A DNA stretch of 53,570 nucleotides, taken from Bacteroidota bacterium (GTDB lineage: Bacteria > Bacteroidota > Bacteroidia > Chitinophagales > UBA10324). A program made the position numbers and the translations under genes. Positions within the stretch are counted from its first letter, which is position 1; the number at the start of each line of letters is the position of its first letter. Of this stretch, positions 40,582-47,991 are shown piece after piece. The stretch covers positions 1 to 53,570 of the forward strand of contig BJGQ01000019.1 in assembly GCA_014190575.1 (NCBI GenBank). The letters are read 5' to 3'. The notes under the pieces were generated by a model. That model worked only from the letters and a program-made list of their open reading frames with translations, did no database searches and was not told the DNA's origin.

Positions 40582-41178
40582 ATGCAGCCGGCAAATCTCA
40601 ACACTAAAACAGTTACCATATTTATTCGAAACATGGTAAGCGATAGTTGTGTGAAGGTGATAAAATGGGAATTGGAGCGGAGCGGTTTTATTCAAGTGGA
40701 AGATATTGAATTAGGTCGTGCTGTTATACATTACAATGAAGGTGTGGTGAATACTGATTTCATCAATGCAATTTTAAACAGAAATGGTTTTGCATTGATT
40801 GACGACAAGGAAAAAAAATTAGTTGAACAAATAAAAGCAGCAGTCATACAACTGTTTTTTTTCGGAAACAATGTGAACTCGCTTATTCGCAATTCAGATT
40901 ACCTGAGTCTGAAATTAGGTGAGCCATATATTTCTCTCAGTAAAACATTTTCAAAACACACCAATAGCACACTCGAAAAATATATTATTCAAATAAAAAT
41001 TGAACGGGTGAAAGAACTTATCAGTTACGATGATATATCGCTGAGTGAAATTTCTTATACAATGGGTTACAGCAGTGTTGCCGCTTTGTCAACTCAATTT
41101 AAGCAGGTTGCAGGAGTAAGTGTGCATGATTATAAAAAGCAAATTCATCCCGACCGTGTACCGCTTAACAAAATATAG
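40582..41178 (+). CDS. AraC-type transcriptional regulator with degenerate HMA-like N-terminal domain
   Basis: 198 residues. Residues about 9-72 resemble a heavy-metal-associated (HMA) fold (IFIRNMVSDSCVKVIKWELERSG ... LGRAVIHYN), but the usual CxxC is reduced to one cysteine in MVSDSC. Residues about 95-190 are an AraC-type helix-turn-helix domain (YIIQIKIERVKELISYDDISLSEISYTMGYSS and a second helix in ALSTQFKQVAGVSVHDYKK). HMA-AraC fusions with intact cysteines occur in Bacteroidota, so this one may have lost metal sensing and respond to another ligand. It is directly upstream of a 21-bp-spaced direct repeat and the PqqD/ATP-grasp operon, so local control of that operon is plausible. Confidence 0.8.
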   Translation: MQPANLNTKTVTIFIRNMVSDSCVKVIKWELERSGFIQVEDIELGRAVIHYNEGVVNTDFINAILNRNGFALIDDKEKKLVEQIKAAVIQLFFFGNNVNSLIRNSDYLSLKLGEPYISLSKTFSKHTNSTLEKYIIQIKIERVKELISYDDISLSEISYTMGYSSVAALSTQFKQVAGVSVHDYKKQIHPDRVPLNKI

Positions 41179-41184
41179 CTTTCC

Positions 41185-41217
41185 GAATTTTATAACTAAT
41201 TGTTTGAATTTTATAAC
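41185..41217 (+). promoter_or_regulatory. Candidate AraC-type operator: two 12-nt direct repeats 21 bp apart
   Basis: GAATTTTATAAC occurs exactly at 41185-41196 and 41206-41217. The 21-bp period is two helical turns, the spacing of AraC-family half-sites. A -7-like AACCTTTG (41230-41237) follows 12 bases after the second copy, so a bound activator would sit next to the polymerase. It lies between the AraC-type gene and the PqqD-like gene. Confidence 0.6.
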
Positions 41218-41283
41218 AGCGGCCTTTTAAACCTTTGTGTTATTTGTGGCGTCAATAGTTTTCGTTCACACAAAAAATTCACA

Positions 41284-41544
41284 ATGAAAATAAAAAAGAA
41301 TATAGCCCTGAGTGATACGGGCTTTGTGTTTAACCCCGCAAGCGGCGATTCGTTTTCGGTCAATCCAATTGGTTTGGAGATCATGAAATTGCTTCAGGAA
41401 AATAAAGGCCATGAAGTAATTAAAAAACATTTGCTCGAAACTTATTCGGTGGATAAGGACACCATTGAAAAAGATTTTTATGATTTCGCAAAAATGCTCG
41501 AACAATTCAAGGTGACAGAAACAGATGAAAAGAAAGAAAGTTAA
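41284..41544 (+). CDS. PqqD-like small protein (candidate peptide- or substrate-binding RRE)
   Basis: 86 residues from ATG 41284 (KIKKNIALSDTGFVFNPASG). The frame is open further upstream, but that part crosses the operator repeats. The pattern 'ALSDTGFVFNP.SGDSFSVNPIGLEIMKLLQE...HEVIKKHLLETYSVD...IEKDFYDFAKMLEQF' fits the PqqD fold (PF05402): a beta-hairpin with a winged helix, used in peptide-modifying pathways to hold the precursor. No pqqA, pqqB, pqqC or pqqE is nearby, so PQQ synthesis is excluded here. Its last 20 bases overlap the ATP-grasp gene, implying tight coupling. What it binds is unknown; no obvious precursor peptide gene was found. Confidence 0.68.
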   Translation: MKIKKNIALSDTGFVFNPASGDSFSVNPIGLEIMKLLQENKGHEVIKKHLLETYSVDKDTIEKDFYDFAKMLEQFKVTETDEKKES

Positions 41545-42574
41545 TGTAGCAGTTACAGGGCTGAATAATGTTGACAGTCCCGGCCCCGGAATTCCTGTTG
41601 TTCGCGGTTTGCTCGACAGCAAGGAATATGATGTGAGAATCATTGGATTAAGTTATGATGCACTGGAACCAGGCATATATATGCATGAGCTGATTGCGAA
41701 AACTTATCAGATTCCATTGCCATCGGCAGGACAAAATAGTTTGATGGAGCGCTTGCGTTACATTAATTCCATTGAAAAAATAGATGTAATCATTCCGAAC
41801 TTCGATGCCGAGTTATTTAACTTTATTAAACTGGCAGATACTTTAGAAATGGAATTGGGCATCCGATCCTTCCTTCCAACATTGGAACAATTTGAAGAGC
41901 GTCAGAAATATAATCTTCCCGAATTCGGAAAAAAATATGACATCAATATTCCAAAAAGCAAAACCATTCACAGTGTTGCAGAAATAAAAAATTTATATCA
42001 GGAGTTCACTTATCCATTGGTAGTGAAAGGAAAATTTTATGATGCATCAGTTGCGTATAATGCAGACCAGGCAACTTCTTATTTTCATAAAATTTCTTCG
42101 AAGTGGGGATTGCCAATTATCATTCAGGAGTTTGCTTATGGAACTGAAGTGAATGTAACTGCGGTAGGTGATGGAAGAGGAAACACGATTGGCGCTGTGC
42201 CGATGCGCAAACAGTTTATTACCGATAAAGGAAAAGCATGGGCTGGCATTACACTCGAAGATGGCGACCTGATGGACTTAACGCGAAAGCTGATGAAGAA
42301 CAGCAAGTGGAAAGGACCTTGCGAGTTGGAAATGATTCGCACCAACGAAGGAGAAATTTATCTGATAGAAATCAATCCACGCTTTCCTGCATGGGTTTAT
42401 CTCGCGGTAGGTGCAGGCCAAAATCATCCCGAAGCATTATTAAAATTAGCATTGGGAGAAAAAGTAAAACCATTTACAAAGTACGAAACCGGAAAAATGT
42501 TTATCCGATATAGCTACGATATGATTTGCGACTTAAAAGAATTTGAAACCATTTCAACTTTAGGAGAACTCTAA
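41525..42574 (+). CDS. ATP-grasp ligase
   Basis: 349 residues. The N-terminal part (about 1-110) is a pre-ATP-grasp Rossmann-like domain (VNVAVTGLNNVDSPGPGIPVVRGLL). The ATP-grasp domain follows: lysine in YPLVVKGKFYDASVAYN (near 160-175), QEFAYGTEVNVTAVGD, and the metal-binding pair in CELEMIR ... YLIEINPRFPAW (Glu-x-Asn-Pro-Arg). It resembles carbamoyl-phosphate-synthase/D-Ala-D-Ala-ligase-type amide-forming enzymes, which activate a carboxylate as acyl phosphate and join it to an amine. The neighbours (PqqD-like before, PLP decarboxylase after) suggest it ligates an amino acid to a carrier, peptide or small molecule. Confidence 0.85.
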   Translation: MKRKKVNVAVTGLNNVDSPGPGIPVVRGLLDSKEYDVRIIGLSYDALEPGIYMHELIAKTYQIPLPSAGQNSLMERLRYINSIEKIDVIIPNFDAELFNFIKLADTLEMELGIRSFLPTLEQFEERQKYNLPEFGKKYDINIPKSKTIHSVAEIKNLYQEFTYPLVVKGKFYDASVAYNADQATSYFHKISSKWGLPIIIQEFAYGTEVNVTAVGDGRGNTIGAVPMRKQFITDKGKAWAGITLEDGDLMDLTRKLMKNSKWKGPCELEMIRTNEGEIYLIEINPRFPAWVYLAVGAGQNHPEALLKLALGEKVKPFTKYETGKMFIRYSYDMICDLKEFETISTLGEL

Positions 42575-42586
42575 AAAAATATTTTA

Positions 42587-43945
42587 ATGAAGAAACTACA
42601 ATATGAAAGACCACTGATTCAACGATTGAACACCGGGTTGATGAACAAGTTCGGAATGAAAACCGAATACACACCTCACACACACATTGATGAAGTGAGT
42701 GTGAAGAGCCTGATAAAGGAATTCGGTTCTCCTTTGTTTGTGATAAGTGAAAAAACAATTCGCAACACTTACAAGGAAGCTAACCGTGCTTTTAAAACCC
42801 GTTACCCGAAAGTGCAGTTTGCGTGGAGCTACAAAACAAATTACATCAATGCGGTTTGCAATGTTTTTCACCAGGAAGGTTCGTGGGCTGAAGTGGTTTC
42901 AGGTTTTGAATATCACAAAGCACTAAACAATGGAGTGCCTGGAAGTAAAATAATTTTTAATGGCCCCGATAAATCAGAAGATGATTTGCGAGCTGCAATA
43001 AATAATGAATCTCCCATTCATATTGATCATCTGGATGAGTTGTATCACCTGAATGAACTCGCAGTTGAAATGAACAAACGACCGAAAGTTGCTATTCGTG
43101 TTAACATGGATACAGGAGTTTACCCGATGTGGGACCGCTTTGGTTTTAATTATGAAAACGGTCAGGCTTGGGATGCAATTAATAAAATTATTCTCGCGGA
43201 TAAATTGGATTTGGTTGGGTTGCATTCGCACATCGGAACATTCATGTTATCGCCGAGTGCATATGGAGTTGCTGCATCTAAGTTGAGTGATTTGGCACTT
43301 GGAATAAAAAAGAAGTACAAGAAAAATATTTTGTATCTTGATATGGGTGGTGGCTTCGCATCGAAGAATACTTTGAAGGGTTCTTTCTTGCAAGGTGTTG
43401 ATACCAATCCGAATTTCGATCAGTTTGCCGAAGCCATTTCAACAGCTATTCTCAATGCAGGATTTGGTACTGATGAATTGCCTTTGTTGGTTTTAGAAAC
43501 CGGTCGTGCGTTGATTGATGATGCCGGATATTTATTGGGCAGTGTGATTTCAAACAAGCGATTGAGTGATGGAAGGCGCGCAACTATTTTAGACTTTGGC
43601 GTGAATGTGATGTTCACTTCATTCTGGTACGACCATAAAATTTCTCCCGCACAGGATTTCGGAAATTATACTGAAGATTCAGTTTTGTATGGTCCGCTTT
43701 GCATGAACATTGATGTGATTCGTGAACACATTACTTTGCCGCCTTTAAAAAGAAACGATCATGTGGTGGTGCATACAGTTGGTGCCTATAACATGACTCA
43801 GTGGATGCAGTTCATTGCATTGCGACCGGCAGTGGTAATGATTGATATGAAAAACAAAATTCATTTAATTCGCAAGCGCGAAAACCTTGAATACCTTGAA
43901 GCATGCGAAGTGAAACCCGATTATCTGAAATCGTTTAAATTATAA
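42587..43945 (+). CDS. PLP-dependent decarboxylase, diaminopimelate/ornithine decarboxylase type (fold III)
   Basis: 452 residues. An alanine-racemase-like barrel with the PLP lysine (Lys83) in FAWSYKTNY, HSHIGT, the phosphate-binding LDMGGGFAS, and ETGRALIDDAGYLLG. The C-terminal domain has YGPLCMNIDVI and GAYNMTQWMQF. Compared with diaminopimelate decarboxylase the CExxD-type active-site motif is changed to C-M-N-I-D: cysteine and aspartate remain, glutamate is lost, so lysine biosynthesis is unlikely to be its main job. It is 12 bases after the ATP-grasp gene and abuts the next gene. Pairing of such a ligase and decarboxylase recalls BtrJ/BtrK of butirosin synthesis, where an amino acid is attached to a carrier before decarboxylation. 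Confidence 0.85.
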   Translation: MKKLQYERPLIQRLNTGLMNKFGMKTEYTPHTHIDEVSVKSLIKEFGSPLFVISEKTIRNTYKEANRAFKTRYPKVQFAWSYKTNYINAVCNVFHQEGSWAEVVSGFEYHKALNNGVPGSKIIFNGPDKSEDDLRAAINNESPIHIDHLDELYHLNELAVEMNKRPKVAIRVNMDTGVYPMWDRFGFNYENGQAWDAINKIILADKLDLVGLHSHIGTFMLSPSAYGVAASKLSDLALGIKKKYKKNILYLDMGGGFASKNTLKGSFLQGVDTNPNFDQFAEAISTAILNAGFGTDELPLLVLETGRALIDDAGYLLGSVISNKRLSDGRRATILDFGVNVMFTSFWYDHKISPAQDFGNYTEDSVLYGPLCMNIDVIREHITLPPLKRNDHVVVHTVGAYNMTQWMQFIALRPAVVMIDMKNKIHLIRKRENLEYLEACEVKPDYLKSFKL

Positions 43946-46159
43946 ATGAACATAGCTCAGAAAAAAAATATCCGCTTCTGGTCTGATAGCTTTATTCATA
44001 GCTATTCGCAGATGTTCTTTTCTGATAACCGGATATTTGCTTACCTGATTTTGGTTGCATCATTTGCAAATGTTCATTCTGGCATTGCAGGATTCATTGC
44101 AGTTATTAGCAGTATATTTTTTTCGCATTGGCTGGGTTTAAACCGCACAAGTATTCATTCCGGATTTTACAGTTTCAATAGTTTAATGGTTGGCTTGGTG
44201 ATGGGATTATTTTTTCAATTCTCATTCATCTTTTTTTTATTGCTTTTTATTTTTTCCATCACTTCAGTATTAATCACCAACGCGGTCGGAATATTTTTTG
44301 CGAAATATGAATTGCCCGTTCTTGGAATTCCATTCATTTTAACTGTGTGGTTGTTGTTGCTGGCAGTAAGAGGTTTGAACGAAATTCAATTGAGTGAACG
44401 ATGGTTATTTGTTTACAACGATTTGTTTTCAATTGGAGGAATTCAAATGGTGAAAGCTTACGAATGGATGCAGGAAATCCGTTTGCCCGGCATCATTGAT
44501 ATTTATTTCAAATCATTGGGTGCGATTTATTTTCAATACAATGTGATTGCAGGAATATTGATTGCAATCGGGTTGCTGATTTATTCACGCATTGCATTTT
44601 CACTTTCCATCATCGGATTCATCAGCGGCTATTATGCATTTTATTTTTTGCATGGAAATGTTGAACAGCTTTCATACACTTACATTGGATTCAATTACAT
44701 TCTTGCTGCCATTTCCATTGGAGGATTTTATTTAATTCCATCTGCGAAATCTTATGTGCTGGCAGTTTTATTAACAGCAGTCATTGCAGTTATTCAAACC
44801 GGAATGGGATACTTACTGGGATTATTGCAATTGCCGATGTATTCATTTCCCTCCACAATAATTATTCTACTCACATTGCTTACATTGAAATACAGATTTG
44901 AATCAAAAGGATTGAAGTTGGTTCCTGTGCAATTATTTTCTCCTGAGAAAAATCTGTATCGCTACCTATATCAAAGTGAGCGTTACAAAAACAATACTTA
45001 CATACAAATTGCATTACCGTTTTATGGAGAGTGGTATGTTTCGCAGGGCAACGATGGAAAAATTACTCACCGCGATGACTGGAAGTATGCACTGGATTTT
45101 GTGGTGGTGGATGAAATGAAAAAAACATTTCGTTTGCCGGGAGAAAAATTGTCGGATTTCTTTTGCTACAACATTCCGGTGAATGCTCCTGCAGCAGGTT
45201 ATGTAACCCATATTATTGATGACATTGAAGACAATAATATCGGTGAAGTAAATCTTCAACAGAACTGGGGAAACACCATTATCATTCGACATGCTGAAGG
45301 TTTGTATTCCAAACTCAGTCACATGAAGCAGGCAAGTTTTAAAGTGAAAGTTGGTGACTATGTAAATGCTGGCGACATCATTGCTGCTTGTGGTAACAGT
45401 GGTCGTTCACCTGAACCGCACATTCATTTTCAATTACAGTCAACTCCTTTTGTCGGTTCAAAAACTTTGCAATATCCGATTAGTTATTATGTTACCCGTA
45501 AGAATGGATTTGATTATGAATTTCATTCGTTCGATTATCCGAGAGAGCAATCTGATGTTTCAAATATTCAACGAACACAAATTTTATTGAGTGCATTCAA
45601 TTTTGAACCCGGGCAAAAATTAAAATTCGAAGTCATTACAAAGGAAGAAGCGAAGGAGAAAAAAGAAATTATTTCTTGGGAAGTGAAAGTTGATTCCTAC
45701 AACTATAAATACTTGTATTGTGCTGAAACCAATTCATCGGCTTACTTCATCAACAACTTCACAGTTTTTTATTTCACTGAATTTTATGGCGATAAAAAAT
45801 CATTGCTCTATCAATTCTTTATTTCAGCACATAAAATTTTGCTCGGTTATTATCATCAAATGAATATTAATGATGAATTGCCATTGAATAGTTTGTTTTC
45901 CGGGATGGTTTTGTATCTACAGGATTTTACAGCACCGTTTATTCGTTTTGTAAAAGCTGATTATAATGCTGTGTTCAGTGTTATTGATGATTTCAATTTT
46001 CCGAAATTCATAAAGATAGAAACACAAGCTTCCATCGGATTCAGTAAGAAAAACTTGAAAGTGATAAATTCTGAAATTGTAATAAATAACGGAAGCATCC
46101 AATACTTCACCATCGAAAACGGAAACACAAAGATTCTGGCCACATGTTTAAGCGATTGA
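43946..46159 (+). CDS. Urea-transporter-like membrane domain fused to M23 metallopeptidase
   Basis: 737 residues, start ATG abutting the previous stop. Residues about 20-325 form a urea-transporter-like channel (PF03253): two related halves with LPVLGIPFILTVWL in the first and LPMYSFPSTIIILLTLL in the second, matching the duplicated LPxxxxP signature. Residues about 350-510 are an M23/LytM peptidase: His375 and a following Asp in HRDDWKYALDF, NWGNTIIIRHAEGLYSKLSHM, GDYVNAGDIIAACGNSG, and HIH at 492-494, so the zinc site looks complete. Residues 510-737 are not recognised. Which side of the membrane carries the peptidase I cannot tell from helix counting. There is no urease nearby. The fusion would couple a small-solute channel to peptide cleavage. 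Confidence 0.85.
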   Translation: MNIAQKKNIRFWSDSFIHSYSQMFFSDNRIFAYLILVASFANVHSGIAGFIAVISSIFFSHWLGLNRTSIHSGFYSFNSLMVGLVMGLFFQFSFIFFLLLFIFSITSVLITNAVGIFFAKYELPVLGIPFILTVWLLLLAVRGLNEIQLSERWLFVYNDLFSIGGIQMVKAYEWMQEIRLPGIIDIYFKSLGAIYFQYNVIAGILIAIGLLIYSRIAFSLSIIGFISGYYAFYFLHGNVEQLSYTYIGFNYILAAISIGGFYLIPSAKSYVLAVLLTAVIAVIQTGMGYLLGLLQLPMYSFPSTIIILLTLLTLKYRFESKGLKLVPVQLFSPEKNLYRYLYQSERYKNNTYIQIALPFYGEWYVSQGNDGKITHRDDWKYALDFVVVDEMKKTFRLPGEKLSDFFCYNIPVNAPAAGYVTHIIDDIEDNNIGEVNLQQNWGNTIIIRHAEGLYSKLSHMKQASFKVKVGDYVNAGDIIAACGNSGRSPEPHIHFQLQSTPFVGSKTLQYPISYYVTRKNGFDYEFHSFDYPREQSDVSNIQRTQILLSAFNFEPGQKLKFEVITKEEAKEKKEIISWEVKVDSYNYKYLYCAETNSSAYFINNFTVFYFTEFYGDKKSLLYQFFISAHKILLGYYHQMNINDELPLNSLFSGMVLYLQDFTAPFIRFVKADYNAVFSVIDDFNFPKFIKIETQASIGFSKKNLKVINSEIVINNGSIQYFTIENGNTKILATCLSD

Positions 46160-47367
46160 TATTTTTCGTTCTTCTATTTATGAGTGTGAATGGGTTTGCT
46201 CAAAAATCAATTCATCACTTTGATTCGCTCACTTTAGTTCAATTGGAAAATCGGGATTGGAAAAAATTAATTGCAACAGGAAAGCAAGCAGTGAAAGAAA
46301 AAAAAGAATTTTATTATCTGTATTACAGAATGGGAGCTGCGTTTTATAATCTGAAAAAATACAGAAAGGCGCAGCATCATTTTGAAAAAGCATATCAATA
46401 CAATCAGTTTGATGATGAGTTGAAAGAATCACTTTTCAATACAATGAAATTGAATGAAAATTATGATGAAGCTTATCGCTTTTCAAAAACCTTTTCTGAT
46501 TCATTGAAAATAAAAACAGAGACAGAAAAATTAGTATTCATCAATCAACTGGATGCATCATTTGCGATGAACAATCCGGACAGCGCAAGCTATTCTCAGG
46601 AAGGAATTCAAAACTATCCGTTGTTTTCAAAATACATTTTCGGTGTTGGATTAAACCATCGGATTGGTCGCGGCATTTCTTTGTACCATCATTATTCAGG
46701 CACATCGTTGAATACAACTCTCTATAAATTTTATCAGAGTCATTATTTTCTCGAAGCGAATATTCCATTGATAAAACATTTTATCGTTCAACCTTCCGTT
46801 GGATTCATATCTCAAAAAACATTTTTCACCAATCTGCAAATAAATCCGGATAAGAATTCTTACTATTTATTTTCTTTGAATCTGAAAAAATCAATACCGT
46901 TTTTTGATTTTAATATTTCAGGTTCTGCTTCTGATTTTTACAAGGTGAATCAATTGCAGTTTACTGGTGGAATAAAATTTTATCCATTGTGTAATAGCAA
47001 AATTTCATTCGGAGCAGAGTACCTGGGAATGAATCAGCAAAATTCATACTATCAAAGTGGATTTTCACTTTCAGGTTCATACAAACCATTTTCATTTTTA
47101 CAATTCAATGCTTCTTACTTTAATGGTGATTCTTTATACAATCAGAACAATGAAAACGGTTTTGTGCTGAATGATAATTCAGCGCTATTAAAAAGCAGAT
47201 GGATTGCCGGATGTTCCATTTTTCTTCCCCATAAAATTACATTGGACTTTATGTACGGAAGAGATTCCAAAATTTATCCGGTAATTAATCCGTTTACCTC
47301 TGTGCATGACGGCTCAATAAAATATGGTTACAACTTTTTTTCTGCTTCTTTTAAAATCAATTTCTAA
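46144..47367 (+). CDS. Exported TPR protein with C-terminal beta-barrel-like region
   Basis: 407 residues. Signal peptide (1-20, ending GFAQ). Residues about 25-130 are TPR-like helices (WKKLIATGKQAV, YYRMGAAFYNLKKYRKAQHHFEKAYQYN). From about 175 on, alternating aromatic strands ending in FFSASFKINF suggest a small outer-membrane barrel. Its start overlaps the end of the channel-peptidase gene by 16 bases, so it is translationally coupled to it and likely part of the same pathway, perhaps the outer-membrane exit or a receptor. I do not recognise a named family. Confidence 0.7.
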   Translation: MFKRLIFFVLLFMSVNGFAQKSIHHFDSLTLVQLENRDWKKLIATGKQAVKEKKEFYYLYYRMGAAFYNLKKYRKAQHHFEKAYQYNQFDDELKESLFNTMKLNENYDEAYRFSKTFSDSLKIKTETEKLVFINQLDASFAMNNPDSASYSQEGIQNYPLFSKYIFGVGLNHRIGRGISLYHHYSGTSLNTTLYKFYQSHYFLEANIPLIKHFIVQPSVGFISQKTFFTNLQINPDKNSYYLFSLNLKKSIPFFDFNISGSASDFYKVNQLQFTGGIKFYPLCNSKISFGAEYLGMNQQNSYYQSGFSLSGSYKPFSFLQFNASYFNGDSLYNQNNENGFVLNDNSALLKSRWIAGCSIFLPHKITLDFMYGRDSKIYPVINPFTSVHDGSIKYGYNFFSASFKINF

Positions 47368-47379
47368 AATTTATAAATC

Positions 47380-47991
47380 ATGAAAAAACTAATTTCAATT
47401 TCACTCATTGCATTAATATTAATCAACTCAGAAATTTCGAAAGCGCAAACATTGCAGGATGCATTCACCAAGAGTTACACATTGGAGTATGCTGGAAAGT
47501 ATTCTGAAGCCATTTCTATATTGAAAGGATTTTATGATGAAAAAAGTTACGAGCAGAATTTGCGCTTGGGTTATTTGAGTTACGAAGCACAGCAATACAC
47601 CGAGTCAGAAAATTATTATTCGAAAGCAATGACCATTATGCCTTATTCAATTGAAGCGAAATTGGGCTATGTTCTTCCCCTCAACGCAAAAGGAAACATG
47701 AATAAAATGGTTGAAGTATATAACGACATTTTAAAAATTGACCCGCAGAATTCAAAAGTGAATTATCGCATGGGTTATATCTCTTACACCAATAAAGATT
47801 ATAAATCCGCTTACAATTATTTTGAAAAAGTAGTAAACCTTTATCCATTTGATTATGATGGACTCATCATGTTCGCTTGGTGCAATCTTCAACTTTCAAA
47901 AACTGCAGAGGCAAAAGTTTTATTCAACAAAGTTTTATTGTTATCGCCAAGTGATGCTTCTGCATTGGAAGGTTTAAGCAAAATCAAATAA
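47380..47991 (+). CDS. Exported tetratricopeptide-repeat protein
   Basis: 203 residues. Signal peptide (1-22, ending SKAQ), then about four TPR units covering the rest (for example YSEAISILKGFYDE, YTESENYYSKAMTIMPYSIEAKLGY, YRMGYISYTNKDYKSAYNYFEKVVNLYP). No catalytic features. It lies 12 bases after the TPR-barrel gene and closes the operon; a 62-base gap and a differently organised GH3 gene follow. Probably a periplasmic scaffold partner of the preceding protein. Confidence 0.75.
   Translation: MKKLISISLIALILINSEISKAQTLQDAFTKSYTLEYAGKYSEAISILKGFYDEKSYEQNLRLGYLSYEAQQYTESENYYSKAMTIMPYSIEAKLGYVLPLNAKGNMNKMVEVYNDILKIDPQNSKVNYRMGYISYTNKDYKSAYNYFEKVVNLYPFDYDGLIMFAWCNLQLSKTAEAKVLFNKVLLLSPSDASALEGLSKIK

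Follow-up and report, generated by a model that had tools for sequence, protein, structure and literature searches.

A conserved direct repeat with a 21-bp period as the probable operator of a PqqD/ATP-grasp operon in Bacteroidota

Introduction

What is the role of an exact direct repeat that lies in the short gap between a gene for an AraC-type protein and an operon beginning with a PqqD-like gene? In the araI1-I2 operator of E. coli AraC, as in other class II AraC/XylS operators, direct half-sites lie about 21 bp apart and the proximal one sits at -35/-33. The locus considered here belongs to a window of 53,570 nucleotides (the whole stretch of DNA analysed: contig BJGQ01000019.1 of assembly GCA_014190575.1, from a Bacteroidota bacterium), for which a sequence-only reading had proposed that the repeat is the operator of a local AraC-type regulator. 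The locus offers a sharply defined operator and promoter geometry for a regulator family, the HMA-AraC proteins, for which we found no described binding site in the open-access literature, and the regulator's signal would point to the purpose of the operon's pathway. On this operon itself we found nothing relevant in the literature; a survey of graspetides (PMC8939145) does not mention a decarboxylase, urea or M23.

Results

The regulator gene (40582-41178, 198 aa) and all features that follow it lie on the forward strand. Six base pairs past its end, GAATTTTATAAC occurs in two exact copies, a distal one at 41185-41196 and a proximal one at 41206-41217, with a start-to-start period of 21 bp, just as had been described from the sequence alone. 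Both copies lie in a 105-bp AT-rich gap that runs from the end of the regulator gene at 41178 to the PqqD start at 41284. The operon that the repeat would control opens with the PqqD-like gene (41284-41544), followed by genes for an ATP-grasp ligase (41525-42574) and a PLP decarboxylase of the Orn/DAP/Arg family (42587-43945), and these three are found together in nearly all compared loci. The decarboxylase is nearest to the N-citrylornithine decarboxylase FslC, at a score well below the cut-off of the FslC model (219 of 500 bits). Next come a urea transporter domain fused to an M23 peptidase domain (43946-46159), a fusion that is kept along with the operon (about 40-50% identity), a gene without a Pfam family that overlaps it (46144-47367), and a gene for a TPR-repeat protein (47380-47991).

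The 33-bp dimer occurs once in the 3.19-Mb genome, even when 3 mismatches are allowed, and the 12-mer GAATTTTATAAC occurs three times, twice in this gap. When the gap was shuffled by a Markov model, 2.5% of the shuffles contained an exact 12-mer repeat; this figure is probably too high, since the dinucleotides of the repeat itself are carried over into the shuffles. The gap is one of 3 places in the window where an exact 12-mer is repeated within 93 bp. Since composition alone is not decisive at this rate, conservation has to decide.

We therefore compared 80 loci from a scan with the operon's decarboxylase, plus added relatives of the window genome. Many of these loci come from metagenome assemblies, in which a gene may be missing through a gap in the assembly, and some record titles are evidently misnamed bins (e.g. 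L029, labelled Bifidobacterium). Upstream regions were scored with a two-half-site weight matrix in leave-one-out fashion. Scores were bimodal: 44 of the 80 comparable genomes, nearly all of them Bacteroidota, carry a strong dimer with a period of exactly 21 bp ahead of the PqqD gene, clearly separated from the 36 that do not, and each of the 44 sites outscores all 60 of its shuffles. Tandem direct half-sites about two helical turns apart near the core promoter, a feature of AraC/XylS operators, are thus present with the same period in 44 loci. The half-site consensus, to which the distal copy in the window belongs, is AATYTTAYAmM. The site lies mostly 80-120 bp ahead of the PqqD start and was found at every locus where the regulator gene is less than 400 bp upstream of PqqD. 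Distant loci aligned by eye carry the same dimer, for example AAATTTTATACATCCTTTTTATAATTTCGTAAC and AAATTCTATAACTTTTTTTCAGAATCTTATAAC in two Bacteroidales genomes (L079 and L042, respectively). Loss of the repeats where the operon is kept, or absence of the regulator from such loci, had been named as what would speak against an operator; instead, dimer, spacing and linkage to one regulator clade are conserved across Bacteroidota. The repeat does not accompany the operon everywhere, being present in 44 of 80 genomes, but nearly all of the 36 operon-bearing genomes that do not have the site also lack the regulator.

Within the window's genus, operon and regulator occur together in three genomes (G000, G002 and G004) and are both missing from three others (G001, G003 and G005). 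The operon of G004 is on a different contig, where it adjoins an mscL-like gene and is preceded by only the last codons of the regulator, a short 3' remnant, while the full regulator gene (98% identical) is retained beside recJ/lptB. The 33-bp dimer ahead of this operon is letter-perfect despite the separation; thus, the site was kept with the operon after the regulator gene had come to lie elsewhere.

The -7 box of the Bacteroidota sigma-ABfr promoter is TAnnTTTG (PMC7366714). When 39 loci were stacked by their proximal half-site, a TAnnTTTG block emerged downstream, although it had played no part in building the weight matrix. TA and TTTG are enriched at +22 to +29, TTTG is fixed at +26 to +29 past the proximal half-site, and the G at +29, present in 36 of 39 loci, is the most informative of all columns. 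The window's own copy, GTTATTTG at 41239-41246, has the TTTG without the TA, and the whole pattern of dimer and -7 box is found with 0 mismatches in 3 genomes of the window's genus. The earlier candidate for the -7 box, AACCTTTG (41230-41237; 12 bases past the repeat and 9 bp before GTTATTTG), was rejected: it lies off the conserved position, and in G004 it has lost its final G whereas GTTATTTG stays.

Counted back from the -7 box, the proximal half-site ends at about -33, as in class II AraC-type activators, and to this extent the sequence-only proposal of half-sites next to the -35 region, fitting an AraC-type activator, agrees with the promoter as predicted here. The -33 TTTG of sigma-ABfr promoters is absent from this promoter, where the proximal half-site fills its position. 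This absence gives weak support to activation, since the -33 motif could not be found generally in Flavobacterium johnsoniae either (PMC7366714), and a missing -33 box is by itself no proof of activation.

Regulators were sought in whole genomes and their relationships determined by trees. Those of the genomes with the site form one monophyletic clade (support 98/95), both where the regulator gene adjoins the operon and where it does not (about half of these genomes), and the best matches from genomes without a site fall outside it, with three exceptions (G089, G104 and G133). A clade member is present in 43 of 44 genomes with the site vs. 3 of 36 without it (Fisher p = 7e-18, uncorrected for phylogeny). 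On the ATP-grasp tree, 13 changes of the site are counted, at least 7 of them forced by well-supported branches, so the match between site and regulator is not one shared event. As to the discordant genomes, G077 has the site and no clade member was found in its 2.1-Mb assembly, G089 has the regulator and no site, and in G104 and G133 the site adjoins the regulator gene rather than lying ahead of PqqD. A search for the dimer with TTTG at +26 to +29 across about 207 Mb of sequence, from the window genome plus 60 relatives, gave 11 matches vs. 2 for the reversed pattern; 8 of the 11 have a gene of this regulator family less than 1.5 kb away, and exactly one is in the window genome. We claim no further targets of the regulator in the window genome, where the next-best dimers have at least 2 mismatches to the degenerate pattern and are no commoner than hits of the reversed control. 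In another genome, a copy of the operator upstream of the regulator gene itself (L069:512-544) suggests autoregulation there.

The regulator has the C-terminal double-HTH domain of the AraC/XylS family (HTH_18, E = 5e-12, above the gathering score), and its structure model matches the AraC-type domains 3oio and 1bl0. The N-terminal 75 residues are predicted to adopt the ferredoxin-like HMA fold of CopZ/ATX1-type metallochaperones, with strand-helix-strand-strand-helix order, a pLDDT of about 90 over residues 11-80, TM-scores of 0.82-0.85 to copper chaperones (by target length) and an rmsd of 1.3 Å over 68-69 columns to 6ff2 and 2l3m. Unlike those metallochaperones, the window protein does not match the Pfam HMA profile (PF00403), a profile matched by 17 of 63 relatives (best E = 8.5e-05), and it has S20-D-S-C23 in place of the CxxC metal-binding motif. 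Copper sensing through CxxC is unlikely for this protein, because its first metal-ligand Cys is Ser. Among the clade members examined, SxxC is found in 29 of 42 and CxxC in 6 of 42, and 15 of 20 relatives examined outside the clade keep CxxC.

Several of these outside relatives (L101, L103 and L160) adjoin copper-ATPase-like genes, which, judging by position, they probably control. They have the same architecture as the window regulator, and a dimer much like its own lies beside them, followed in L103 and L160 by TTTG at an equal distance, but they keep CxxC and stand outside the operon-linked clade. We infer that the family shares one operator type and that the operon-linked branch has changed its signal. 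By a loose test, a dimer was found beside 11 of 42 outside relatives and not beside most, so the sharing may not extend to all of them.

Discussion

We propose that the repeat very probably serves the PqqD/ATP-grasp/decarboxylase/urea-transporter-M23 operon as its operator, and that the HMA-fold AraC-type protein encoded just upstream would bind it and act by class II activation. The main idea of the sequence-only reading, an operator for the local AraC-type regulator, thus gains support from the conserved dimer, its 21-bp spacing and its linkage to one regulator clade. In such a switch, one 12-bp half-site would be occupied by each DNA-binding domain, whether the protein binds as a dimer or as two monomers, with the half-sites on the same face of the DNA and two helical turns apart. 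The proximal half-site is at -33, 21 bp ahead of the -7 box (41239-41246), so protein bound there would touch sigma/RNA polymerase and stand in for a weak -33 contact; transcription would probably start near 41253. Binding by this regulator, activation rather than repression, and a signal that makes the operon inducible are what we infer from the sequence comparisons. The layout is that of E. coli AraC at araI1-I2 and of other class II AraC/XylS operators, namely direct half-sites about 21 bp apart with the proximal one at -35/-33, and it differs from E. coli AraC in the half-site sequence, in the Bacteroidota -7 box TAnnTTTG instead of a -10 box, and in the HMA-like fold that takes the place of a cupin sugar-binding domain. 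The operator/regulator pair neatly illustrates a well-known type of gene switch.

The same protein could instead repress from the same operator, blocking RNA polymerase over the -33 region until a signal releases it. A repressor would also act where the proximal half-site lies, but AraC-family proteins with tandem half-sites next to a core promoter are mostly activators, and where the clade is missing the site is missing too and a different regulator gene frequently lies upstream, which is what one would expect of an operon that depends on an activator; we regard repression as improbable. Still less credible is binding by some other factor, with the upstream regulator a mere neighbour. The regulator gene is indeed non-adjacent in about half of the site-bearing genomes, yet those genomes hold the same clade elsewhere, genomes without the site almost never do, and a matching site also lies next to the genes of some related regulators that have the canonical CxxC. 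A chance repeat in AT-rich intergenic DNA, conceivable from the shuffle rate, can be dismissed, since both the period and the distance to the promoter are fixed across Bacteroidota.

In the genomes without the site, the gene upstream of PqqD frequently encodes another type of regulator: a hybrid histidine kinase with Hpt, a LytTR response regulator, a sigma-54 activator, or, followed by a Metal_resist-family protein, an ECF sigma factor. Types were assigned by Pfam on one or few examples each and by similar sequence starts for the rest, and the ECF sigma factor (L027) from its sequence alone. Such genes were seen at L015, L019, L022, L034, L036, L038, L050, L060, L074, L087 and L027. Because the type of upstream regulator varies across lineages, regulatory rewiring of one conserved operon becomes directly testable. 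A broader scenario, which we offer tentatively and consider somewhat doubtful, is that a branch of HMA-fold AraC proteins gave up metal binding, reads a different signal and controls an undescribed PqqD/ATP-grasp/decarboxylase pathway, whose control passed elsewhere in Bacteroidota to hybrid histidine kinases, LytTR regulators, sigma-54 activators or ECF sigma factors.

Additional copies of the operator were seen at L029, L021 and L023. In L029, two tandem operators (1502-1534 and 1777-1809), both followed by a correctly spaced TTTG box, flank a 66-codon ORF before PqqD. In L021 (11631-11706) and L023 (11710-11785), two copies, inverted in orientation, lie past the operon's 3' end and may mark a second target of the regulator; those in L023 precede a gene for a large secreted protein.
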